Source: Niabella sp. (GTDB lineage: Bacteria > Bacteroidota > Bacteroidia > Chitinophagales > Chitinophagaceae). From it: a stretch of 64,000 nt of DNA. The stretch spans positions 47,366 through 111,365 of the forward strand of contig JAPUDO010000024.1 of NCBI GenBank assembly GCA_027493055.1. The letters are read 5' to 3'. The position numbers were made by a program, and so were the translations under genes. This document shows positions 1-12,644 of the stretch, one piece after another (the stretch's first letter is position 1; every line of letters starts with the position of its first letter). The notes below the pieces were generated by a model, which saw nothing but the letters and a program-made list of their open reading frames with translations, made no database searches and had not been told where the DNA came from.

Positions 1-667
1 GCGAAAACAATGTTGGCAATCCTGGCTTCACGGGTAGATCAAAATTGCAAACTTCCAATTCAATAGCTATCGACTCCTTTTGGCCGTCCAGCTGAATTTC
101 TACGGCCCCATTATAAATCCCCGCTGCAGCGCCCGCTGGCACTGAACAATTAACCCAAATGCAATTGGACCAGTTCTTTATTAAAACCGGATTATCTTTC
201 TTCAATAACGGATCGGGGTACCAGCCGGGTAACTGGCCCGAAACATCCTGGGAAACAGGATGTCCGTTAAAAGTTTGCACATACACATACCCTACCTGGA
301 ACCATTCCAGCCCGTTGATGCGATTGGTTCCGTTGAAAAGACTCCCTGTTTTGACCGTGACATTTTTAATGTCTGTTTGCGGACGTATCACTATTTGGAA
401 GCTTTCTGTTTCATTGCGGCCGGCTTTTAAACGAATAGCTTTTCCTTCTTCGGGTATGTCATTGGGCATTACTTTCCTGGATCCTGAAACAGTAGCGATC
501 GTATATAACAGTTTACCGGAAGAACTGCCTTCCTGCGTTTCCTTGATCTTCCTTGCGCAGGAAACCTGCGGCTCAAACAGTAACAGTCCGGATCCTGCTA
601 TTGCCGTTCGCTTGATAAAATTTCTTCTTGTAGTGAAATGACTGCCGGTATTACTTGATTTTTTCAT
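1..667 (-). CDS. Tat-exported DUF4091/GH123-like glycosidase, N-terminal part
   Basis: The reading frame is open from the ATG at 667 down to the window edge, giving 222 residues without the C-terminus. Residues 12-20 (TRRNFIKRT) followed by a hydrophobic stretch form a twin-arginine signal. The part after it (ETESFQIVI, then a beta-rich stretch) resembles the N-terminal region of DUF4091/GH123-type proteins, which act on amino-sugar glycans; the catalytic domain lies outside the window. Its ATG overlaps the stop of the upstream NHL lipoprotein gene (ATGA), so the two are translationally coupled and belong to the SusC/SusD locus. Family assignment is from remembered sequence character, not a search, so the exact GH family is uncertain. 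Confidence 0.6.
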   Translation of the reverse strand, partial: MKKSSNTGSHFTTRRNFIKRTAIAGSGLLLFEPQVSCARKIKETQEGSSSGKLLYTIATVSGSRKVMPNDIPEEGKAIRLKAGRNETESFQIVIRPQTDIKNVTVKTGSLFNGTNRINGLEWFQVGYVYVQTFNGHPVSQDVSGQLPGWYPDPLLKKDNPVLIKNWSNCIWVNCSVPAGAAAGIYNGAVEIQLDGQKESIAIELEVCNFDLPVKPGLPTLFS

Positions 668-1989
668 AAGATCTCTTCCTGGTATATTTTACGTATACTG
701 TGATTATTGGCATCAACAACATAAACCTCTCCATTAGGGCCAGTGGCTACACCTGTAGGATTATTGAATAGTCCTTCTGCTTTCAGGCCATCCTTAAAGC
801 CGCTCTTTGTACCGCCAAAAAAAGTTGACACATTATTGTTTCTAACGTTAATGAACCGAATACTTTGATCGGTGTGGTTACCTCCGTCATTATACCAGGG
901 GCCTCCGTAAGGGCCGGAATCTCCGGCCACATAAAGGTTTCCGGTAGCAGCATCCACCGCTATGCCCCAGGGCCTGTCAAACTTAGCCGAAGTGCCTATT
1001 CCATCTTCATAGCCCGCAACCCCGGCCGTTCCTGCAATAATAGTTGTGCTTAACGGATTACCGGCAAATGCTTTCAGGTCTACACTGTGAATAACCGACT
1101 TCCCTGTTTCTACGATGTACATTATACCCTGCTGATTGATGGTAATGCCACTGGTCCAGCCCAAATTGGTAACAACAGCCGAAAGGTTGCCATTGGGTTC
1201 TACACGGTATACCGCCCCGTTCGTAAGTGAGCCAACGTATACCTGGCCATTCCTTGGGTCAACGGCAAGCCCCACAATGTCGCCCACACCTGTAACGGTG
1301 CTCACGGTCCCATTCCTGGAAATTTTCCGTAGCTTGGCATTCCAGGTATCGGCCACGTACACATTTTGATCTTTATCCACAGCTACATTAAACGGGGTGT
1401 CAAACCTGGCCTGTTCACCGGTACCGTCTGTGCTTCCGGCGGTGCCTTGTCCTGCTAAAGTTGTCACCACTCCATCGGGCGTAATTTTCCTGATCCGGTT
1501 ATTGCCTGCGTCGGCCACATACACATTACCTGCGGCATCTACTGAGAGGCCGGGCGCCCTTACAAAATTGAATTGCGCCACCTTTCCATCTCCGTCTGCA
1601 AAACCAGCAACGCCTGTTCCTGCCAATGTTTTCATTCTCCACTGGTATATAGGGGGAAACTTAAAAGCCGTTGCGCTCTTACCTACACTGTTACCTATTT
1701 TAACTTCTACCAGCCCTGTTCTGGCTTCGGGAACAATGAGCAGTATACGGTCTTTGGTAACACCTGTTATCTTTGCTTTCACGCCGTTGATGGTTACTTC
1801 CACGTCGGCTATATTGGTCGAAAAATTATTCCCGAATATCATCATTTCAACGCCCCCGCTTCCTTCCGACGGTATAAAACGGTCGATCGTAATGGGCTCT
1901 GAGGCATTGTGTTCCGGGTTATAGTCTTTTTTGCAGCTTGCCATTGATAAAATGAGCAGTGGGAACAGTAAGGTTATAAATATTTTCAT
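664..1989 (-). CDS. IPT/TIG and NHL-repeat lipoprotein
   Basis: 441 residues. A lipoprotein signal ends at Cys19 (lipobox region SMASCKK). Residues about 32-112 form an IPT/TIG immunoglobulin-like domain, and the rest is a run of NHL-type beta-propeller blades with repeated motifs such as GNVYVADAGNNRIRKI and GEVYVVDANNHSIRKI. Proteins of this build sit on the cell surface next to SusD in Bacteroidota glycan loci and are thought to bind ligand; no catalytic residues are evident. It lies 23 bp downstream of susD and overlaps the next gene by 4 bp, so it is part of the operon. The domain call is strong, the specific ligand unknown. Confidence 0.85.
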   Translation of the reverse strand: MKIFITLLFPLLILSMASCKKDYNPEHNASEPITIDRFIPSEGSGGVEMMIFGNNFSTNIADVEVTINGVKAKITGVTKDRILLIVPEARTGLVEVKIGNSVGKSATAFKFPPIYQWRMKTLAGTGVAGFADGDGKVAQFNFVRAPGLSVDAAGNVYVADAGNNRIRKITPDGVVTTLAGQGTAGSTDGTGEQARFDTPFNVAVDKDQNVYVADTWNAKLRKISRNGTVSTVTGVGDIVGLAVDPRNGQVYVGSLTNGAVYRVEPNGNLSAVVTNLGWTSGITINQQGIMYIVETGKSVIHSVDLKAFAGNPLSTTIIAGTAGVAGYEDGIGTSAKFDRPWGIAVDAATGNLYVAGDSGPYGGPWYNDGGNHTDQSIRFINVRNNNVSTFFGGTKSGFKDGLKAEGLFNNPTGVATGPNGEVYVVDANNHSIRKIYQEEIL

Positions 1990-2012: not shown

Positions 2013-3653
2013 TCAATTGTATCCGGGGTTTTGTACCAGATTCTTGTTCCTGTTTAATTCTGTTTGCGGAATGGGGAACAGGTCATATTTATTGTTATAG
2101 AACCGGTTTTCTACAATAAAAGGCTCATACTTCCAGTTTGCGCCTGTTCGGGTTATCTTCATACCATGTACCTCTTTTAACACCTGCTCGCCGATTCTCC
2201 ATCGCCTGATATCCCAAAACCTGTGCGATTCAAAAGCCAGTTCGATACGCCTTTCATTCCGGATTCGTTCGCGCATCTGAACTTTTGTTAATCCTCCTGG
2301 CAAAGGTGGCATGTTTACGCCCGGACGGGCCCTGATTTGATTAATGGCATCGTATACCGATTGATCGGGAGCGTCTAATGCTTCATTTTGTGCTTCTGCA
2401 TAATTCAGCAGCACTTCGGCGAAGCGCATATAAATAAAATAATGACTTCCAGGCCGCCAGATAGGGGTTATACTACCTGTTTCGTCTAATGTTTTAGCTA
2501 AGTAATAACCCGTGCGGGTATAGTTATTTCCCGGGCCATTCAGGCCATCCAATCCACCTTCGAAAGTTTCGATGGGTACACTTCGCCAGGGCATATTGTT
2601 ATGAATAACAGTCATTTTAAATCTCGGATCCCGGTTTTCGTAGGGGTTCAACGCATCGTAAAGCGGTGATTCTTTATAAGATTTTCCATCTTTCATTTCA
2701 AAGGCATCTACCAGTTCCTGGCTGGGCTGCACAATAGAAAAGCCACCCTGGCTTGGCATTAAGTTGTTACGGAGCTGATCTTCATAATTGCCCGTATACT
2801 GAAAAATGGTCTCGACCGACTGACGTGTATGCAGCATTCCTTTAAATGATTCGTGCAGGCGATACTGATTTAAATCCATCACTTCCTTAGCGGCTGCGGC
2901 GGCCTTCTGCCATTTTTGAACTTTTTGTTCAGGGTTATGCAGTAAGCTTGCCGCGTAAAGCAGGGTGCGGGCTTTAAGTGCCATGGCAGCTCCTTTTGTG
3001 GCTCTGCCCAGATCCCTTAGGCTATAGGTTAGCGGAAGCAGCGCTATTGCATTGTTACAGTCATCTGCAATCTGATCAACCACTTCTTCGCCTGTGGCCC
3101 GGGGGATAGCAAGGTCATCGCTCGCCTGCAGCACACGGTTTACCAGTGGCACTCCTCCATAACGTTTAAAAAGTTCGGCGTATACCCAGGCCCGCAGAAA
3201 GTAGGCTTCTCCTTTCATACGGATCTTACCCGCCTGTTCTTCTTCGCGATTGTTTGTAGATATTGGCAGGCCATCAATTTTCTCAAGAAACAGGTTCACC
3301 TTCCGAAGCGTTACATAGGCAGATGCCCACTGATCAATAGGATTGTTATTAGGTGTAAAATTCCCATCGTATGTAAATTTTGGACTTGGCCAATAGGCAT
3401 AAGCGCAATAGCCGTTATCTGTGGCTCCATCGTAGGAAAAAGACCAAAGGTTACCGCCTACCCAGTCAATCGTAAGGCCCGATCCGTAAACCTGTGCCAG
3501 GAAACGTTCTGTTTGCCTGTAATTACCGAATACTTCTTCGTCGGACATTCCACCTGATTCTGCTTTATCAAGATATGCATCTAATTTTTTACAGCCGGTG
3601 AAAAGAAGAAGAATCCCCAGAATGATATTTAATTTTTTAAATGAGCAAGACAT
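2013..3653 (-). CDS. SusD/RagB-family surface glycan-binding lipoprotein
   Basis: 546 residues with a lipobox (LLFTGC, Cys21), an alpha-helical TPR-like body and the usual SusD ending (FPIPQTELNRN...QNPGYN). SusD proteins cap the SusC barrel outside the cell and deliver bound oligosaccharide. The gene starts 21 bp after susC in the direction of transcription, the standard arrangement. Length and both ends fit the family. The substrate cannot be told from sequence; the neighbouring GH123-like and SGNH hydrolase genes hint at a substituted glycan. Confidence 0.93.
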   Translation of the reverse strand: MSCSFKKLNIILGILLLFTGCKKLDAYLDKAESGGMSDEEVFGNYRQTERFLAQVYGSGLTIDWVGGNLWSFSYDGATDNGYCAYAYWPSPKFTYDGNFTPNNNPIDQWASAYVTLRKVNLFLEKIDGLPISTNNREEEQAGKIRMKGEAYFLRAWVYAELFKRYGGVPLVNRVLQASDDLAIPRATGEEVVDQIADDCNNAIALLPLTYSLRDLGRATKGAAMALKARTLLYAASLLHNPEQKVQKWQKAAAAAKEVMDLNQYRLHESFKGMLHTRQSVETIFQYTGNYEDQLRNNLMPSQGGFSIVQPSQELVDAFEMKDGKSYKESPLYDALNPYENRDPRFKMTVIHNNMPWRSVPIETFEGGLDGLNGPGNNYTRTGYYLAKTLDETGSITPIWRPGSHYFIYMRFAEVLLNYAEAQNEALDAPDQSVYDAINQIRARPGVNMPPLPGGLTKVQMRERIRNERRIELAFESHRFWDIRRWRIGEQVLKEVHGMKITRTGANWKYEPFIVENRFYNNKYDLFPIPQTELNRNKNLVQNPGYN

Positions 3654-3674: not shown

Positions 3675-6600
3675 TTAGAGATTTACCGATAATCCGAAAT
3701 TGTATACTTTCTGTTGGGGGTAATTGTTACCACTTCCGCTTCTTGTTTCCGGATCATATGATCCGCCTATTTTATCCCAGGTAAAGAGGTTCATTCCATT
3801 AGTATATATTCTTAAAGAATTGAATTGTTTTGTTTTCGTGAGCTTTAACTTTCTAAACGTATAGCCTATTTCGGCATTTTTTAACCTGATATAAGAAGCA
3901 TCCTTCAGGAAAAAAGAAGTAGGCCGGTGGTTATTATTGTTGTACCCGTAGTGTAATACAGGGTAGCTGGCAGATGCCGCGGTTTCGGGTGTCCACCGGT
4001 TCAGGTGATGGCGAAGAACATTTTTGCCTTCTACAAATTCGTAAGCCGCCTGGTCGCTCAGCATTACATTCGAACCGGAAGCTCCCTGGAAAAGACAGCT
4101 CAGATCAAAGCCTTTCCAGCTCATCCCTAAATTAATGCCATAGAATTTTTCAGGCACATTTGTTTTGCCAATTGGGCCTGCGTCGTTGTCATCAATAACC
4201 TGATCGTCGTTTAGATCGCGGTAACGGATATCGCCCGGTATCACCTGCCCAAACTGTTTGGCGTGGTTTTCGATTTCCTCCTTATTGCTAAAGAATCCGT
4301 CTGCCTGCAGCCCAAAAAATTGTCCCAATGAATGGCCTGTCAGCATGAGGTAAGGATATGGCTTAGGCTCCTCATCCATAAAAACGATCTTATTCTTTGC
4401 CAAAGACATATTTGCCCGTATGAAATAGTTAACCTGTCCTACTCTTTTCCGGTGATTCAATTCAATTTCGTATCCCGTATTGGAGACTTCTCCAAAATTG
4501 ACTGGCGCAAGATTTCCGGCAGGAATACCTATGGTAGAAGGAACAGAACCTCTTGTAATTAAAATGTTATCTCTTTTTTCCTTAAACAGGTCTACATTCA
4601 ATTCAAACAAACCGTTCCACATTTTTATTTCTACGCCGACATTTGCCTTACGACCTATTTCCCAGGAAATATCGGGGTTTGACATAGCGCCTTCTCCCAC
4701 ACCGCTCATCCATATAAGAGGGTCGCCAAAATTGTACCCCGACTGATCGTTGTATTCTGAAATGAACAGCCATCTTCTCCCATTTAGCTGGTCGTTACCC
4801 GTTAAGCCATAAGAACCCCTGAGTTTCAGGAAAGACAATACCTTGTTGTTTTTTAAAAACTTTTCCTGGGAAATGATCCAGCCGGCCGAAAGGGCAGGGA
4901 AGAAACCATACCGGTTTTTTTCTGCAAAATTATCTGTACCATTATAGCCAGCGTTAAACTCTGCGAAATAGCGGTTGTCAAAATTATACGTAATACGTGT
5001 CACCAGGCCCTGCGAAACATATGGGATCTGGCCACCAATTACTTTTTGGGTACGATTGGCTAACAATAGCCCTGTAACAAAATGTTTGCTGAAAGCCCCT
5101 GCATAGTTAAGCGACATGTCCATCCAAACATCCCTGTTCTGGCCAAAGGAGGAAGAAGGAGCAGAAAGGGGTAGGTCTTCTCCAATGTAAGTATAACTGG
5201 CCAGATCAGAAAAGTCGCCAAAACCATTGTAGTATGCCGATCGCTCACTTCTCGTTCTTCCAAACCGGTTCCTGAAATACCCGTCAAACGAATAGTTACC
5301 CTTAATGGAAAGCCCTTTTAAAATAAAATCCAGCTTATGGGATGCCGATAACATTCCTGATAAAGAAGAATTAAAGTTCTGGTAATACCCCTGTGTATTG
5401 AGCCAGTAAAAGGGATTTAATAAGGCAGGTGTTTGAGCATAAAAACCTGTAGGATATTTTACCGGATATGCGTTGGGGGTTACCTTCTGGAGCATGTCAA
5501 ACAACTGCGAAGCAGAAGCTCTTGGATACCGCCCGTTTTCTATGGCACCGAAAAGATTGAGCGACAGCGAAAAATCTTTATTGAAGTCAATATCAATGTT
5601 AGAACGGAAGTTGTATCGTTTAAAAGATATGTTAGGGTCATATTTAGGTTGCTTCTCCGATTTGTAAATGCCATCCTGGTTGGTATATCCTATGTTTACA
5701 AAATACTTTGTTTGCGGGCTGCCACCACTGATATTAAAATTTGTTTGAGAAAGTAATGAATTTTTCAGCGCTTCATCCATCCAGTTTACATCCGGGTACT
5801 TCAGGGGGTTGATACCGGTTCGGTAAGCCTCCAGTGCGATTTCGTTGTAAGGAATCAATATGCCATCGGGGTTATCGTTACGGTAAGCTTCATTAGCCAG
5901 GGTGGCATAGTCGTAAGAACCCAGTATCTGCGGCAGCCGTGTTGGCGTTTGTACGGCGTATTGTGATGATATCTGTATGCCCGGTGCACCCAGTTTTCCT
6001 CTTCTTGTAGTGATGATAACAACACCGTTAGCGCCTTTAACACCATACAAAGCGGTAGCAGATGCGTCTTTTAGGATAGTGATGTTTTCAATTTCATTTA
6101 CGTCCAGCAGGTTAATAGCACTATAATCCTTTTGCACTCCGTCAATCGTTATCAACGGCGATACGCTGTTAAACGTTGCCCGGCCCCGGATCAGCAGGTC
6201 GGCATTATCGTAACCGGGCTCGCCGCTTCGCTGCATGGTTATTAATCCCGGAAGGCGACCAGCCAGCGCGTTTGTTACATTGGCAACAGGGCTTTGCTTG
6301 AGCTCTTTGGTAGAAACGGATGCCAGTGAACCTGTTTGTGCAATTTTTTTCTGTGATTGCCCAAACCCAAGTATAACAATCTCTTCCATACTTTCTTCTT
6401 TGGGACGCATAATAATATGCAGGGGTTTGTAATCAATAATCCTGTACCGGTAAGGCTGGTAACCAACTGCCGTAAAAATAATATGGTCGCCAATCTCAGC
6501 CGAAATGCTGAATTGCCCCTGCTGATCGGTAGACGCAGCCGTTTTCTTTTCTTCTACGCTAACAGAAACACCCGCTATAGGATTACCTGCCGAATCTACC

Positions 6601-7085
6601 ACCAAACCGCTGACCTCCTGTTGCCTGTCCTGCGTCAGGTCGGGCTGTTGTTGTACCTGTTTTTGGGAGAGGTTATTCAGCTCATTTTTTTTAATTACAA
6701 TAACCTTGTCATGCAGCTCATAGGTCAGCGGCTGGTTGTTGAATACAATATCCAACGCTTTATTCAATGCAGCCTGTTGTACGGCAATGCTAACAGCAGA
6801 TGCTTTTTTCAGGTCGGGGCTATTATAAAAAAGCGTGTAGCCTGTTTGCTTCTCAATTTTTTTCAGCACCGTAAGCATGGAAGCGTTCTTTTCATTCAAG
6901 CTGATTTGCTGGGCAAATACGCCTGCAGACACGCTTAGGCAGGAAACAGATAAGAGGAGTATAGTGATTTTTACTTTAATAAGAATCAAATGCATTGTAA
7001 GTTTTCTGAGAAGAAAGCTTTTGTGGGATCGCTCCAGTTTGGCATGCAGAATAGAGTGATAACCGAATTTTTGTGTAAAATTCAT
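3675..7085 (-). CDS. SusC/RagA TonB-dependent receptor with STN signalling domain
   Basis: 1136 residues. In order: signal peptide; an STN (secretin/TonB N-terminal) domain at about 62-133; a carboxypeptidase-regulatory-like domain at about 155-225; a plug domain at about 240-362 with the SusC signature (LLIRGRATFN, ILKDASATALYGVKGANGVVIITT); and a 22-strand outer-membrane barrel. The STN domain is the part that contacts a FecR-type anti-sigma factor, which fits the fecR and sigma genes immediately upstream. The annotated N-terminus is long for a signal peptide. An internal Met at residue 31 (codon at 6993-6995, MHLILIKVKITILLL) would give a normal one, so the true start may be there. Confidence 0.95.
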   Translation of the reverse strand: MNFTQKFGYHSILHAKLERSHKSFLLRKLTMHLILIKVKITILLLSVSCLSVSAGVFAQQISLNEKNASMLTVLKKIEKQTGYTLFYNSPDLKKASAVSIAVQQAALNKALDIVFNNQPLTYELHDKVIVIKKNELNNLSQKQVQQQPDLTQDRQQEVSGLVVDSAGNPIAGVSVSVEEKKTAASTDQQGQFSISAEIGDHIIFTAVGYQPYRYRIIDYKPLHIIMRPKEESMEEIVILGFGQSQKKIAQTGSLASVSTKELKQSPVANVTNALAGRLPGLITMQRSGEPGYDNADLLIRGRATFNSVSPLITIDGVQKDYSAINLLDVNEIENITILKDASATALYGVKGANGVVIITTRRGKLGAPGIQISSQYAVQTPTRLPQILGSYDYATLANEAYRNDNPDGILIPYNEIALEAYRTGINPLKYPDVNWMDEALKNSLLSQTNFNISGGSPQTKYFVNIGYTNQDGIYKSEKQPKYDPNISFKRYNFRSNIDIDFNKDFSLSLNLFGAIENGRYPRASASQLFDMLQKVTPNAYPVKYPTGFYAQTPALLNPFYWLNTQGYYQNFNSSLSGMLSASHKLDFILKGLSIKGNYSFDGYFRNRFGRTRSERSAYYNGFGDFSDLASYTYIGEDLPLSAPSSSFGQNRDVWMDMSLNYAGAFSKHFVTGLLLANRTQKVIGGQIPYVSQGLVTRITYNFDNRYFAEFNAGYNGTDNFAEKNRYGFFPALSAGWIISQEKFLKNNKVLSFLKLRGSYGLTGNDQLNGRRWLFISEYNDQSGYNFGDPLIWMSGVGEGAMSNPDISWEIGRKANVGVEIKMWNGLFELNVDLFKEKRDNILITRGSVPSTIGIPAGNLAPVNFGEVSNTGYEIELNHRKRVGQVNYFIRANMSLAKNKIVFMDEEPKPYPYLMLTGHSLGQFFGLQADGFFSNKEEIENHAKQFGQVIPGDIRYRDLNDDQVIDDNDAGPIGKTNVPEKFYGINLGMSWKGFDLSCLFQGASGSNVMLSDQAAYEFVEGKNVLRHHLNRWTPETAASASYPVLHYGYNNNNHRPTSFFLKDASYIRLKNAEIGYTFRKLKLTKTKQFNSLRIYTNGMNLFTWDKIGGSYDPETRSGSGNNYPQQKVYNFGLSVNL

Positions 7086-7237
7086 TTTGTTGATAATTAA
7101 GGTTTATAGTAAATGGACTGATCGCCTTATTTTAAAGGAGTTTGGAGCAATGCTTATTTTCTCCTGGCAATTGCAGTGTAGCAGTTTTTTTTATTGTTCC
7201 GGAATGTTTTTTTTGCTTCTTTCATATTGTATCGTTT

Positions 7238-8389
7238 TTAGTAAATAATTAATTTCCTGTTTTCCATTTTATAGTTAATGCCAGTGGTGGTTTTCAGGAT
7301 ATTTAATGCTGTGTGTAAGTTGGTGTTTCGTGGGATCTTTCCATAGAATGCGTCCGATTGCTCAGCGTTAGGATGTTTGTTTTCTACTTCTATATTGTAC
7401 CAGCGGCTATAAGCATCCAGCACCGTTTGCAGGCTGGCGTTTTCAAAATAAAAGAACCCCTCCTTCCAGGCGGTCACACCCTCCAGAGGCACCTCTTTAA
7501 CACGCATTGTTTGGTCTGTTTTATTAAACAGCAGTTGCTGGCCGGGTTTTAGCGTTTTGTTAAAGAATTCTTTTTCTGCACTAACCTGTACCGAACCTTC
7601 AATTAAGGTTGTGCTTATATAGGCGCTTTCATAGGTATTGATATTAAATTGTGTTCCTAACACCTTCACCACCTGGTTGTTGACGGTAACGAAAAAAGGT
7701 ACAGGCTGTTTCCCTGCTTTAACCTTCGCAATGTTGAAAAATGCTTCTCCTTTTAAAAGCTGTACTTCGCGTTTTTCTTTCGAAAACGCAATCGGATAAC
7801 GCAGGGTGCTTTCATAATTCAGGACGATACTGGAACCATCTGGGAGAAACACTGTATACTCGCCACCGCGCGGCGTTGAAATAACATTCATAGCAGATGT
7901 AGCGCCTGTGGCTCTGTTACCGGTGGAATGGTAATACAGCTCTCCGTTTGCTTTTTTCTCGATGGTAAATCCCGAATCTGTTATAATGTTGCCGGGCTGG
8001 ATACTGTCCAGGTTCACCGTAATGCCGTTGGATAATGTTAACAAGGCTTTTTTGCCCCCGGGCAGAATATTGGTGACAATATCCGCTTCTAAATGGCTAT
8101 TCCTATAGAAAAAATAAAAACCTGCGCTAAATAACAACAGGAGTGAAGCTGCAACTGCGATGCGCCTGAATAAGCGGACTGGCATGTGCAGGATGAAAGC
8201 AGGTTTAACGGCTTGATCCTGAGCCATGCGTTCTTTAAAGCTCAGCAAGGATTTTTGCAACTCGTGTTCTTCAAGAGGCGTTGCGTCAGGATGCCTGAAT
8301 TCATCCAGCCAACGGTACAACAGCTGCTTTTTATGTTCGTTCAGATTTCCTTTCCTGAATTGCTTCAGCAGATTTTTTATGTGATCCAT
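7238..8389 (-). CDS. FecR-family transmembrane anti-sigma factor
   Basis: 383 residues. A cytoplasmic N-terminal anti-sigma region (about 1-70) precedes one membrane segment near residues 71-95 (IAVAASLLLLFSAGFYFFY). Next come the periplasmic FecR domain (STPRGGEYTVFLPDGSSIVLN..., about 165-265) and a C-terminal DUF4974 domain (about 310-383). It should hold the adjacent ECF sigma factor inactive until the SusC STN domain signals. It lies between the sigma gene and susC. Its first 45 or so codons are also present, broken, in the downstream duplication at 10725-10869. Confidence 0.95.
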   Translation of the reverse strand: MDHIKNLLKQFRKGNLNEHKKQLLYRWLDEFRHPDATPLEEHELQKSLLSFKERMAQDQAVKPAFILHMPVRLFRRIAVAASLLLLFSAGFYFFYRNSHLEADIVTNILPGGKKALLTLSNGITVNLDSIQPGNIITDSGFTIEKKANGELYYHSTGNRATGATSAMNVISTPRGGEYTVFLPDGSSIVLNYESTLRYPIAFSKEKREVQLLKGEAFFNIAKVKAGKQPVPFFVTVNNQVVKVLGTQFNINTYESAYISTTLIEGSVQVSAEKEFFNKTLKPGQQLLFNKTDQTMRVKEVPLEGVTAWKEGFFYFENASLQTVLDAYSRWYNIEVENKHPNAEQSDAFYGKIPRNTNLHTALNILKTTTGINYKMENRKLIIY

Positions 8390-8464
8390 ATTGCTTTTAC
8401 ATGGATGCCTTTACCAGCATCTATAACAATATGTCGATTGAAAATGTATTAATAGGTAGTCAGA

Positions 8465-9037
8465 TCAATAAAAAATCATAAAAAAAGAATAAATCAGTAA
8501 TTTCTTTTTTAGAATTTTAATGGCACTCTTAATATGGGTAGATACGGTGTGAACAGACAGCCCTAACTGAGCTGCAATTTCTTCGTGACTAAGATTTTCA
8601 TTCCGGCTTAGCAGGAAGGCCTGTCGCATACGTGGAGGCAGCTTCTCAATTTCACTCTCTATATAGTTTTTAAATAAAGATTCGCGTGCTGTAAAATCGG
8701 TATTGGCGATCACCTGGTGCATAAACTGGTTGATGCTTTGAAGATATACTTTCTGTCTTTTTGATTTGCTGATATGATCGAGTATTTTGTATTTGACTGC
8801 TTTGATGAGATAATTGTTAAGCTTTTCCTGTAGTACGATCTGTTTGCGGCGGTTCCATACCTGCAATAATATATCCTGCACTATATCTTCTGCCTCTTCA
8901 AGACTGGCCAGTTTACTATGTGCGTAGCGAAGCATATCGGGGTAGAATTTTACATATATCTTTTCATAGGCTGATCTGCTGTCGGCTATACATACGCTAT
9001 CCAGCAATTCTTCATCTGAAAGATTCTGCAAATTCAT
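8465..9037 (-). CDS. ECF RNA polymerase sigma factor, copy 1
   Basis: 190 residues, typical of Bacteroidota ECF sigma factors paired with FecR. Region 2 is visible around residues 36-70 (YAHSKLASLEEAEDIVQDILLQVWNRR). Region 4 is at about 130-180, with a helix-turn-helix LSHEEIAAQLGLSVHTVSTHIKSAI. The start ATG follows a perfect AGGAGG (on the reverse strand of 9048-9053), which is uncommon in this phylum. A 17-bp palindrome lies about 59 bp further upstream. fecR follows 75 bp downstream. A second copy at 10946-11518 differs by only two residues (Q4H, D34N). Confidence 0.95.
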   Translation of the reverse strand: MNLQNLSDEELLDSVCIADSRSAYEKIYVKFYPDMLRYAHSKLASLEEAEDIVQDILLQVWNRRKQIVLQEKLNNYLIKAVKYKILDHISKSKRQKVYLQSINQFMHQVIANTDFTARESLFKNYIESEIEKLPPRMRQAFLLSRNENLSHEEIAAQLGLSVHTVSTHIKSAIKILKKKLLIYSFFMIFY

Positions 9038-9123
9038 TTAATGAATACCTCCTGGCAATTTGTGAATGGTCTTAAATTGTTCATACGAAGTTAATAGTTT
9101 AGTAACTAAACTGCTTAATATGG
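9038..9123 (-). promoter_or_regulatory. Leader of sigma copy 1: palindrome and strong RBS
   Basis: Seen directly: AGTTTAG-taa-CTAAACT at 9096-9112, a 17-nt inverted repeat, and AGGAGG at 9048-9053 on the coding strand, 10 nt before the ATG. Both are kept in the duplicate leader (palindrome 11577-11593, RBS 11529-11534). Inference: the palindrome is an operator or part of the promoter of the sigma gene. Confidence 0.5.
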
Positions 9124-9139
9124 GCACACGCATTAAAAA

Positions 9140-9490
9140 TTATTGAGCATTCTTTAAAAGAGCGAGCAAATAGTCTTTATTTCTATCAGCCTTTTTTGTT
9201 TTCGCTTAATACTTAGCCTTTTCCCTCCCTTTTTTTCTTCGGATTGGTTAAGGAGGTTGAGCGCGATTTTGCTCATAAAGGAAAAGTTCCGGGCAGCATT
9301 TACCTGCTCTTTTTGTACTGGCCTCCTCATTAAAGCTGAGTCTAAGACCCAGTGGAGATTTTTTCTATGCCTCAATGTTCTCTTTGTAAAGCAGATGGGG
9401 CCCCTGTCGTTTGTTCAAAGACCTCCTTTATATCATCATGCAAGTGCTTTTGGTTGTCTTTCACCGCCAAAATGTATTCAGCTCCTACCA
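9140..9490 (-). pseudogene. ISAs1-type transposase relic, frameshifted and internally deleted
   Basis: No intact frame, but three pieces on the reverse strand read like an ISAs1-family transposase. One piece reads EYILAVKDNQKHLHDDIKEVF (about 9464-9402). The next, from 9375, contains NLHWVLDSAL...NAARNFSFMSKIALNLL. After a frameshift near 9190 comes the C-terminal tail DRNKDYLLALLKNAQ, ending at the TAA at 9140-9142. The expected stretch between EVF and HWVLD is far too short, so part of the middle is deleted; upstream stops also interrupt it. It lies between the SGNH hydrolase gene and the leader of sigma copy 1, directly at the edge of the 880-bp duplication. The family call rests on motif memory. 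Confidence 0.7.
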
Positions 9491-9554
9491 GGATTCATTG
9501 TCCTGGCCGTAATCTTCAATATAAAAGTGAAAACGCCTCTTTTCATACAAACAA

Positions 9555-10664
9555 CTACCGGTTCTTTTTTAGAATACGCTGTATAAGTTCCTTATAAGCT
9601 TTGGCATATTTTAACATGCCTATATCCGTTGGATGAATTTCGTCCACGGTATCATTCATATCCAAACCTATATCCTCATGTCTGAGATAGTATAAGTTTT
9701 TTATCCCTTGTTTTTGCAGCTCTTTATACGTAGAAAGGGAGGCGTCATTTATAGCCCAACTGGATGCCAAAAGAGAGGAGCTTATCCGGTTCCCAAATGT
9801 AGAAGAATGATCCACCAGGATAACAGGTGTTTCCGGATGTCTGGACCGAATTGTATTAACCGTATTTATGAGCCCAGGTCTGATACCATCCACACCCATA
9901 TTGGGCATACAATCCAGTATAAATATCCGGGCTTCTTTTTCTACGATCAGATCTACCACCTCTTTTTCTAACCGGCCATTCCCCGAAAAGCCGAGATTGA
10001 CTATGGGGATGTGAAGGTCTCTGTTCAAAATATTTGTCCAGGCCAAACCTGCTCTGGACACACAGCCTCCCTGGGCAATGGAAGTCCCATACACTACGAT
10101 AGGTTTTTCGGAAGACACAGGTACAAATTCAAAAGTATTGCCTTCAGGAATACCTATTTCCAACCATTCGACGGAATTGTATAACGGCAGGTACAAATGA
10201 AAGCTACCGCCTGGTTGGGGTTTTTCCTTATCCGGCGGCAAGACGGTGTAAGTATAAGTAATCGTATCCTGAAAGCTATACTTTCCATAGGACCATGACC
10301 AGCTCCCATCTGTATTTTCCATAAACAGATCCAGACCAGAAACTCCGGTGGCAGGGAAATGATCCATAGCATATCTTTTTTCAGCAACCACGTATCTTAC
10401 TATGATCTGCTTTGCATCTGTATTGAATATCAATTTCAATCCGGCTGCATTTTCAGACAGAGCCCACACCACTTTTCTGACCAGGTGCTCTGCTCTCGCA
10501 GGTAATCTGTCATAAAATGATTTTATTTCCTGACCCTTCCATAGCTGATTATGCACGGTAGAAAAACCGGCTGTAGAAGGATTATGCCAGACAAATTTCC
10601 TCTGTGCCGAACAAGGCAACCCCGGGAGCAGCATTAATAGAAAAAACAAAAATCTGTACATCAT
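9555..10664 (-). CDS. Secreted SGNH/GDSL-family esterase
   Basis: 369 residues with a signal peptide (about 1-20, ending CSAQ). An N-terminal jelly-roll-like region at about 30-175 includes a GLDLF motif as in the GxDLY domain. The SGNH hydrolase domain follows: nucleophile Ser195 in YGTSIAQGG, Gly225 and Asn229 in GFSGNG, and Asp341/His344 in DEIHPTDIGM. The catalytic set is complete. Such enzymes remove acyl or acetyl groups from carbohydrates in the periplasm or outside the cell. It lies between the two sigma copies, so it may be controlled with the nearby glycan locus; that link is inferred from position only. Confidence 0.88.
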   Translation of the reverse strand: MMYRFLFFLLMLLPGLPCSAQRKFVWHNPSTAGFSTVHNQLWKGQEIKSFYDRLPARAEHLVRKVVWALSENAAGLKLIFNTDAKQIIVRYVVAEKRYAMDHFPATGVSGLDLFMENTDGSWSWSYGKYSFQDTITYTYTVLPPDKEKPQPGGSFHLYLPLYNSVEWLEIGIPEGNTFEFVPVSSEKPIVVYGTSIAQGGCVSRAGLAWTNILNRDLHIPIVNLGFSGNGRLEKEVVDLIVEKEARIFILDCMPNMGVDGIRPGLINTVNTIRSRHPETPVILVDHSSTFGNRISSSLLASSWAINDASLSTYKELQKQGIKNLYYLRHEDIGLDMNDTVDEIHPTDIGMLKYAKAYKELIQRILKKNR

Positions 10665-10724
10665 ATTAAAAATAATAACCCGTTGGTAGAATTAATTATG
10701 ACAAAAAAATAAAAACATCCCCAT

Positions 10725-10869
10725 AGCAAGGATTTTTGCAATTCGTGCTCTTCAAGAGGCGTTGCGTCAGGATGATTGAATTCATCCAGCCAACGGTACG
10801 ACAGCTGCTTTTATATTCGTTCAGATTTCCTTTTCCTGAATTGCTTCAGCAGATTTTTTATGTGATCCA
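10725..10869 (-). pseudogene. Truncated, frameshifted stub of fecR
   Basis: Equivalent to the first 49 or so codons of the intact fecR at 7238-8389. The ATG is at 10867-10869. An extra base after codon 13 shifts the frame and gives a TAA at codon 20. A 1-bp loss a little further on restores the frame, but translation would already have stopped. Homology ends at 10725. No functional anti-sigma factor can be made here. Confidence 0.9.
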
Positions 10870-10945
10870 TATTGCTTTTACATGGATGCCTTTACCAGCA
10901 TCTATAACAATATGTCGATTGAAAATGTATTAATAGGTAGTCAGA

Positions 10946-11518
10946 TCAATAAAAAATCATAAAAAAAGAATAAATCAGTAATTTCTTTTTTAGAATTTTA
11001 ATGGCACTCTTAATATGGGTAGATACGGTGTGAACAGACAGCCCTAACTGAGCTGCAATTTCTTCGTGACTAAGATTTTCATTCCGGCTTAGCAGGAAGG
11101 CCTGTCGCATACGTGGAGGCAGCTTCTCAATTTCACTCTCTATATAGTTTTTAAATAAAGATTCGCGTGCTGTAAAATCGGTATTGGCGATCACCTGGTG
11201 CATAAACTGGTTGATGCTTTGAAGATATACTTTCTGTCTTTTTGATTTGCTGATATGATCGAGTATTTTGTATTTGACTGCTTTGATGAGATAATTGTTA
11301 AGCTTTTCCTGTAGTACGATCTGTTTGCGGCGGTTCCATACCTGCAATAATATATCCTGCACAATATCTTCTGCCTCTTCAAGGCTGGCCAGCTTACTAT
11401 GGGCGTAACGAAGCATATTGGGGTAGAATTTTACATATATCTTTTCATACGCAGACCTGCTATCGGCTATACATACGCTATCCAGCAATTCTTCATCTGA
11501 AAGATTGTGTAAATTCAT
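10946..11518 (-). CDS. ECF sigma factor, copy 2, without an intact anti-sigma gene
   Basis: 190 residues, identical to the sigma factor at 8465-9037 except Q4H and D34N, so regions 2 and 4 and the DNA-binding helix-turn-helix are unchanged. It keeps the AGGAGG ribosome-binding site and the leader palindrome. Its fecR partner is reduced to a dead stub (10725-10869). The product should recognise the same promoters and may be held by the FecR of copy 1, or may add unregulated sigma activity; which is true cannot be read from sequence. The open frame and low number of protein changes, against more silent changes in its 5' part, suggest it is still under selection. Confidence 0.93.
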   Translation of the reverse strand: MNLHNLSDEELLDSVCIADSRSAYEKIYVKFYPNMLRYAHSKLASLEEAEDIVQDILLQVWNRRKQIVLQEKLNNYLIKAVKYKILDHISKSKRQKVYLQSINQFMHQVIANTDFTARESLFKNYIESEIEKLPPRMRQAFLLSRNENLSHEEIAAQLGLSVHTVSTHIKSAIKILKKKLLIYSFFMIFY

Positions 11519-11604
11519 TTAATGAATACCTCCTCGCAATTTGTGAATGGTTTTATATTGTTCATACGAAGTTAATAGTTTAGTAACTAAACTGCTCAAT
11601 ATGG
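11518..11604 (-). promoter_or_regulatory. Leader of sigma copy 2
   Basis: Carries the same AGTTTAG-taa-CTAAACT palindrome (11577-11593) and AGGAGG ribosome-binding site (11529-11534) as copy 1, with a few base changes between them. Confidence 0.45.
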
Positions 11605-11750
11605 TGTCAGGAAGAAAAGGAGAATCCATCTCCAAAAGTGATTGAGGCGTTTTTTATTTTTTGGATATAGAGCTAAGCAGACAGTACTTCACATTGTGAA
11701 TTTAATAATATACTTTAAATCCCCGGCAGGTGTATTATACATAGCCTCCC

Positions 11751-12470
11751 TTAAAGTGAGCCCACAGCTGCTTCATCTAACATCCATACAATATCCCCTT
11801 TTTTAAGGTTTACGTTTTGAACAGGATATGTAGCTTTTGCATTTTTAGAAAAAATATGTTTAACAACCGGGGCTTTGGCGGCGCCGGCCACCAGGAACAT
11901 TACTTCTTTACTGTTATTAATAAAACGATAAGTAGAGCTGAGACGATAGGTTTGTTTACTTTCAACCCATACTTCCTTTATATATCTTTTCGTTTCGTTT
12001 AAAACATCTGTACCCGGAAATAAAGATGAGGTATGTCCATCATCGCCCATGCCAAGCAGCGTCAGGTCAATTTGCATTTTCTTACCCAATGTGCCTCCCA
12101 GTATTTTTTCGTATTGGTCAGCACAATTCCTGGCTTCACCTTTAACAGGCATTGCCAGCACATTTTTCCGTGGAATTTTTACATGATCTAACAAGGCTTC
12201 TTTTACCATCCTGTAATTGCTGTCTTCGTGCGTGTGCGGAACAAAGCGCTCATCACCCCAAAGCAATACTACCTTTTTCCAGTCTATATTTCTTGAGAAT
12301 GCAGGAGTTGCCAGCAACTGGTACAATCTTTTAGGGGTGCTTCCGCCTGAAAGGGATACTGAAAACCTGCCGGTATCTGCAATGCTTTTATTACATCTTT
12401 CTACAAAAAAATGAGCAGTTGCCACACTTAATGCCTCTGCATTTTCCCAAATCAGTTTTATCTGTTGCAT
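11751..12470 (-). CDS. pgl: 6-phosphogluconolactonase
   Basis: 239 residues, the usual length. Family motifs are visible: SLSGGSTPKRLYQLL near residue 40, LLWGDERFVPHTHEDSNYRMVKEALL near 70-95, and LLGMGDDGHTSSLFPG near 140. It hydrolyses 6-phosphogluconolactone to 6-phosphogluconate in the oxidative pentose phosphate pathway, in the cytoplasm. No zwf or gnd lies in the window, so it is not in the common zwf-pgl pair here. It ends about 147 bp from the duplicated sigma block and diverges from the amidase gene. Confidence 0.95.
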   Translation of the reverse strand: MQQIKLIWENAEALSVATAHFFVERCNKSIADTGRFSVSLSGGSTPKRLYQLLATPAFSRNIDWKKVVLLWGDERFVPHTHEDSNYRMVKEALLDHVKIPRKNVLAMPVKGEARNCADQYEKILGGTLGKKMQIDLTLLGMGDDGHTSSLFPGTDVLNETKRYIKEVWVESKQTYRLSSTYRFINNSKEVMFLVAGAAKAPVVKHIFSKNAKATYPVQNVNLKKGDIVWMLDEAAVGSL

Positions 12471-12644
12471 ATTTTTATTTTGATGTTTAAAGATAGGGCG
12501 GCATTAATAAAATCTTAAAATATTCTGTTGCAAGGCACAATTTTAGGGCCTTATTCACATTTTACGATGGATTTCGTTATTTTCACATTACGAACGGATA
12601 TATATTAAGATTAATTTTAGTTAAGAAAAAGAATAGTACCTGCA

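Follow-up and report, generated by a model that had tools for sequence, protein, structure and literature searches.

The stretch of DNA analysed here, 64,000 bp of a Niabella sp. genome (assembly GCA_027493055.1, contig JAPUDO010000024.1, positions 47,366 to 111,365; hereafter the window), carries a SusCD-type glycan cluster with two nearly identical genes for extracytoplasmic function (ECF) sigma factors, sigma A and sigma B, and a single intact fecR gene for the putative anti-sigma partner. Sigma B can be considered, with a probability of about 0.6, the survivor of a decayed tandem duplication, which shares the one FecR with sigma A and heads an esterase gene. The arrangement is unusual but understandable. 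What has changed is probably the dosage, i.e., two sigma genes to one FecR, together with the placing of a sigma leader before the esterase gene, rather than the escape of sigma B from anti-sigma control proposed in the first-pass annotation. The elements on which this reading depends are the following:

8244..9123, minus strand: block A, comprising a leader, sigma gene A and the first part of fecR (alignment)
10725..11604, minus strand: block B, comprising a leader, sigma gene B and the fecR stub (alignment)
8465..9037, minus strand: sigma A, 190 aa, above the TIGR02985 cut-off (open reading frame and profile score)
10946..11518, minus strand: sigma B, 190 aa, above the TIGR02985 cut-off, with Q4H and D34N relative to A (open reading frame and profile score)
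8351..8881, minus strand: 531-bp tract of A without any difference to B, a probable conversion tract (alignment)
10832..11362, minus strand: the matching 531-bp tract in B (alignment)
7238..8389, minus strand: intact FecR (PF04773, PF16344), 383 aa (open reading frame and Pfam)
10725..10870, minus strand: fecR stub of 146 bp, with a 19-codon frame at 10811-10870 including the stop (sequence and alignment)

The duplication is real. Two 880-bp blocks on the same strand had been claimed, and the alignment bears them out, with a start-to-start distance of 2481 bp; in the genome as a whole (5.75 Mb in 131 contigs) A and B were the sole matches reported, 40 of the 45 first-look candidates having been scored. 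The 880 bp contain 24 difference events: 16 substitutions in the upstream flank (8882-9123, 242 bp), six substitutions and two one-base indels in the downstream flank (8244-8350, 107 bp), and none in the 531 bp between them. A run this long was reached in none of 300,000 trials in which 24 events were placed at random. The identical core and the diverged flanks had been recognized from the start, and only the length of the core, first estimated at about 525 bp, has to be corrected to 531 bp.

Both sigma proteins score above the TIGR02985 cut-off of 126.4 bits (132.3 bits for sigma A, 132.0 bits for sigma B), contain PF04542 and PF08281 (sigma regions 2 and 4) and are identical at 188 of 190 residues; the second gene is indeed intact with two residue changes, Q4H and D34N. 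Over 108 related loci position 34 holds rank 153 of 168 in conservation, i.e., it is a variable site, and at position 4 an aligned residue is present in just 13 of the 108. All 12 differences within the sigma genes fall in codons 1-52; ten are synonymous and two are replacements, while about nine replacements among the 12 would be expected under random substitution. This pattern suggests that both copies were long kept functional by purifying selection in the past, although it cannot show present use, and today sigma A and sigma B are presumably functionally equal. A further 43 sigma matches were counted in the same genome, and among the matches listed none exceeds 31% identity to the pair.

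In the remainder of the sigma gene about 28 synonymous differences would be expected at the silent rate of the flank, and none is seen; intergenic sites of the core are identical as well. Selection on the core, one of the causes suggested earlier for its identity, is rejected because these silent sites are identical. The other, recent gene conversion, explains 531 identical bp between diverged homologous flanks and appears to be the best fit, an assembly effect being less likely. Such copying has a counterpart in bacterial rRNA operon repeats, for which one paper (PMC8022953) describes RecA-dependent, non-reciprocal events that render stretches of duplicated genes identical; unlike those repeats, the sequences affected here are two regulatory genes lying 2.5 kb from each other, with a single tract.

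In the intact FecR both domains score above their cut-offs (PF04773 with 60.0 bits, PF16344 with 58.2 bits), and residues 149-383 match the solved structures 4m0n and 4m0h of a putative anti-sigma protein. In block B, homology to this gene ceases at 10725, at about codon 49 of 383; the frame of the stub opens at 10870 and stops after 19 codons, and a second indel follows. The earlier description of a frameshifted and early-ending fecR was right as to a dead stub, the larger lesion being a truncation and not the frameshift. No usable N-terminal FecR domain can be read from the sequence of the stub, to which no family scan was applied. In a review of the E. coli system (PMC9249621) the FecR fragments 1-46 and 1-56 are given as non-inducing, whereas those listed from 1-59 upward activate FecI; the stub of 19 codons, being far shorter, is therefore expected to be inert. 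The intact FecR encoded 2.5 kb away should control sigma B in trans. A parallel for control in trans, on the sigma side, is offered by Bacteroides thetaiotaomicron, in which a distant ECF sigma factor is reported to act on part of a glycan cluster (PMC12596196).

A further element, which bears on the history of the pair, borders block A on its upstream side:

9122..9494, minus strand: remnant of an ISAs1-family transposase with a likely insertion sequence (IS) end at 9122-9133 (profile pieces and motif)

Between them, the two transposase pieces, at 9154-9375 and 9375-9494, cover positions 160-188 and 278-314 of the 314 of the NF033564 profile, and the region is a remnant, not an element. An ISAs1 piece from another genome (G060, locus L211), itself above the cut-off, aligns to it at 43%. 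The motif GGGCNNACGCAT at 9122-9133 resembles the termini found in two relatives of ISAs1 (L211 and L213) and is situated about 20 bases past the last transposase piece and a few bases from the upstream edge of block A. With at most one mismatch it has four occurrences in the window, where shuffled sequences give 3.4, the sole exact occurrence being that at 9122. Other loci, 2.93 million strand-bases in all, contain 62 such matches; two of them in L102 occur with no match to the transposase piece, and the motif was not found in L212, although that locus has an ISAs1-like piece. It is therefore by its place alone that the motif argues for an IS end. The upstream edge of block A is thus probably the insertion point of the IS in A rather than a breakpoint of the duplication.

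The following course of events can be proposed. Two heads, each consisting of leader, sigma gene and fecR, would once have stood in tandem. The upstream copy would then have lost most of its fecR and, presumably, any susCD genes behind it, which left the 146-bp stub followed by the esterase gene. The leader of the downstream copy may have been hit by an ISAs1 element, which would have degenerated afterwards, along with a deletion beside it. Purifying selection would have preserved the two sigma genes, and 531 bp of the two blocks would have become identical through a recent gene conversion. At present the cell would have two equal sigma factors and a single FecR, relaying the signal from SusC and controlling both in trans, and the esterase gene would be read from the leader of sigma B.

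The escape of sigma B from FecR, so that it would drive the glycan locus without a signal, is very unlikely. It is true that the fecR linked to sigma B is dead and that two sigma genes per FecR could leave some sigma factor unbound; furthermore, the dependence of FecI on FecR is called unique among regulators with anti-sigma activity in PMC9249621, so other sigma factors may be active once free, and the argument from E. coli is weak for other FecR proteins. Nevertheless, sigma B differs from sigma A at only two of its 190 residues, one of them the variable position 34, the intact FecR gene is close by, and E. coli FecI, which the FecR fragments 1-46 and 1-56 do not activate, is described in the same review as inactive without FecR unless strongly overproduced, so that losing the linked FecR would alone not be enough to set a sigma factor free. 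It is also unlikely, though less so, that sigma B is a spent duplicate without any present role, its core having been kept identical by chance conversion. The decay around it, namely the fecR stub, the IS remnant and a 3' remnant of the 6-phosphogluconolactonase (PGL) gene, would agree with this; against it, the frame of sigma B is intact and the ten synonymous changes to two replacements point to constraint, albeit past constraint that cannot show present use. That the identical core was produced in assembly, a single repeat consensus having been written into both copies, is highly improbable. The genome is a draft and the exact repeat exceeds the usual short-read length, but the roughly 28 core synonymous differences expected would be too closely spaced to be collapsed one by one, and the repeat, being entered twice and left twice, would permit a single linear order, the copy number of the loop aside.

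Several points weigh against the survival of sigma B from a decayed tandem. The ISAs1 pieces score 26.5 and 17.5 bits, both below the NF033564 cut-off of 70, and a Pfam search of the two gave no match. In codons 1-52 dS is about 0.44 and dN about 0.016 (omega about 0.04), figures that are somewhat flattering because they come from 52 codons with a flank edge picked after the data had been seen. How far the upstream copy once reached is a guess. The block DNA was compared with 38 other genomes, 12 candidates or fewer being scored per genome; four of them yielded matches, 38-49 bp long, and the other 34 yielded none. None is thus a usable DNA relative by which to root the pair, to orient the conversion or to follow the pair into sister strains. 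Finally, a draft assembly of 131 contigs may have mishandled a 531-bp exact repeat.

Relatives of the pair are distant. In a scan of GTDB genomes the closest sigma factor is 39% identical among the best 80 of 316 relatives, the best-scoring ones coming from Bacteroidota such as Pedobacter and Sphingobacterium; across the 16 further genomes of the genus, the sigma factor ranked first by E-value among the matches listed is likewise 39% identical. None of the 80 GTDB loci, which are 3 to 20 kb long and in some cases too short for a second copy, has a direct repeat of at least 200 bp and at least 80% identity over the sigma gene. Such repeats are present in two of them, L007 and L024, elsewhere than at the sigma gene; that of L007 (7309-9481, Pedobacter steynii) is a long direct repeat near the sigma gene, with an offset of 442 bp and 88% identity. 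Likewise, no repeat of at least 150 bp was found in 28 other loci of the genus (3-4 kb each) or in two further regions of the genome G006. A search for the rest of cluster B in the home genome gave, among the matches listed, other SusD proteins of 37-41% identity, with seven of 110 candidates scored. Two clusters with SusD of 55% identity, in G179 and G101, were considered as a root for the pair and rejected, their sigma and FecR matches being merely 24-28% identical; no esterase match was found within their 19.9-kb stretches.

A tandem duplication is present in another species of the genus (genome G011, L214:2791-13441), where sigma, fecR and susC are repeated with a period of 5,320 bp (5,331 bp at 99.96% identity) inside a contig of 5.63 Mb, with an overlap of 11 bp at the junction. 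Nothing but the last codons is missing from the upstream susC, the downstream copy is complete and both fecR genes are intact. This case, spotted by eye among the sigma matches and hence no survey, is perhaps a fresh form of the event proposed here. In both genomes the head is duplicated in the same orientation, the downstream copy is complete and the upstream copy is cut inside an operon gene; in contrast to G011, the present pair is old and mosaic, most of one fecR is lost, and the esterase gene and the IS remnant lie between the copies. Taken with the G011 case, the present pair suggests that the heads of glycan clusters may duplicate and decay repeatedly in the genus. No comparable sigma pair turned up in a literature search over titles and the beginnings of abstracts, which does not prove that none exists.

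The pair would be an example of sigma/anti-sigma partners losing their one-to-one stoichiometry, in which the anti-sigma gene died while the sigma gene remained constrained, the likeness of the two sigma factors being maintained by recombination; it raises the question of how a 2:1 ratio of sigma to FecR genes affects induction. It is rather improbable that the identical 531-bp repeats turn the 2,481 bp that they enclose (the stub, the esterase gene, the IS remnant, leader A and one sigma gene) into a cassette that can be removed or amplified. If they do, recombination would produce either a leader-sigma-fecR-susCD operon that is intact but lacks the esterase gene or several copies of esterase and sigma genes, so that both the esterase content and the sigma to FecR ratio could vary in a population with the cluster always working.

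The other genes of the cluster and its edge are as follows:

9555..10664, minus strand: SGNH/GDSL hydrolase (GxDLY and Lipase_GDSL_3), 369 aa, the first gene past the stub (open reading frame and Pfam)
3675..7085, minus strand: SusC-type receptor with an STN signalling domain (family search)
2013..3653, minus strand: SusD-type lipoprotein (family search)
664..1989, minus strand: NHL-repeat protein of the same cluster (family search)
11751..12470, minus strand: PGL, a chromosomal neighbour at the cluster edge (family search)
11767..11819, no strand assigned: 3' end of the PGL gene, 53 bp, recurring at 92% beyond the cluster at L120:15272-15324 (alignment)

In the direction of transcription the order is PGL, a hairpin, leader B, sigma B, the stub, the SGNH esterase, the IS remnant and leader A, followed by sigma A, FecR, SusC, SusD and the NHL protein; beyond the left edge of the window (L120) come a GH123-type protein, a nucleoside hydrolase and a GH32 enzyme, the last of which makes fructan a candidate for the glycan. 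No other minus-strand open reading frame of at least 60 aa lies between sigma B and the esterase gene. The adjacency of SusC with its STN domain, SusD, sigma factor and FecR places the locus among the FecI/FecR-type SusCD clusters, and a signal may pass from SusC through FecR to the sigma factors. As in the E. coli FecI/FecR/FecA system and its SusCD-linked form, an ECF sigma factor, a two-domain FecR and a SusC with an STN domain are present in order; unlike in Fec-type systems, there are two sigma genes per intact fecR, and the second of them precedes a fecR stub and an esterase gene.

The cluster sits between argH and PGL, and in one relative (G008, L200) the matched parts of these two genes are 43 bp apart with nothing between them, a comparison that rests mainly on this one genome among eight PGL regions of the genus. 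Of the eight, argH was found in G008 and in G001 (L202, frameshift-rich, with about 3.5 kb between the genes), and in the other six it is outside the stretch. The absence of the cluster from the argH-PGL junction of G008 is new here, as are the ISAs1 remnant at the edge of block A and the G011 tandem.

The leaders contain the following short elements:

9096..9112, no strand assigned: 17-bp palindrome in leader A (exact match)
11577..11593, no strand assigned: 17-bp palindrome in leader B (exact match)
11619..11633, minus strand: terminator-like hairpin between PGL and leader B (consensus match only)

In the home genome the exact palindrome is confined to the two leaders, with one more site at two mismatches. 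As a general operator it was rejected, there being no exact site in 148 other genomes. The run of 40 identical bp around it is unremarkable (P of about 0.32), and the fact that both leaders retain the palindrome is, taken alone, of no significance; it is possible that the leader of sigma B still uses it. If the hairpin ends PGL transcription, the promoter of sigma B should lie within the duplicated leader. By count, neither scan gave evidence of signals: five terminator sites were found against 3.8 in shuffled sequences, and ten promoter sites against 14.1. A search for a shared sigma-target motif gave nothing beyond the 12-mer AATTGCCAGGAG, found on the minus strand at 9049-9060, in the ribosome-site region of leader A, and at 7161-7172, upstream of susC; the window has no further site (0.05 were expected), and leader B lacks the 12-mer.

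It is also worth mentioning that the repeated 3' end of the PGL gene (11767-11819 and L120:15272-15324) resembles a scar of old integration or recombination, and that beside the distal remnant, at about 14890-15590 of L120, candidate pieces of an aspartic protease and of an ApbE-type protein can be recognized by eye. On the other side of the PGL gene, the gap to the amidase gene (12471-12644) measures 174 bp, whereas about 3 kb is present there in the eight PGL regions of the genus, which suggests that something was lost or moved.

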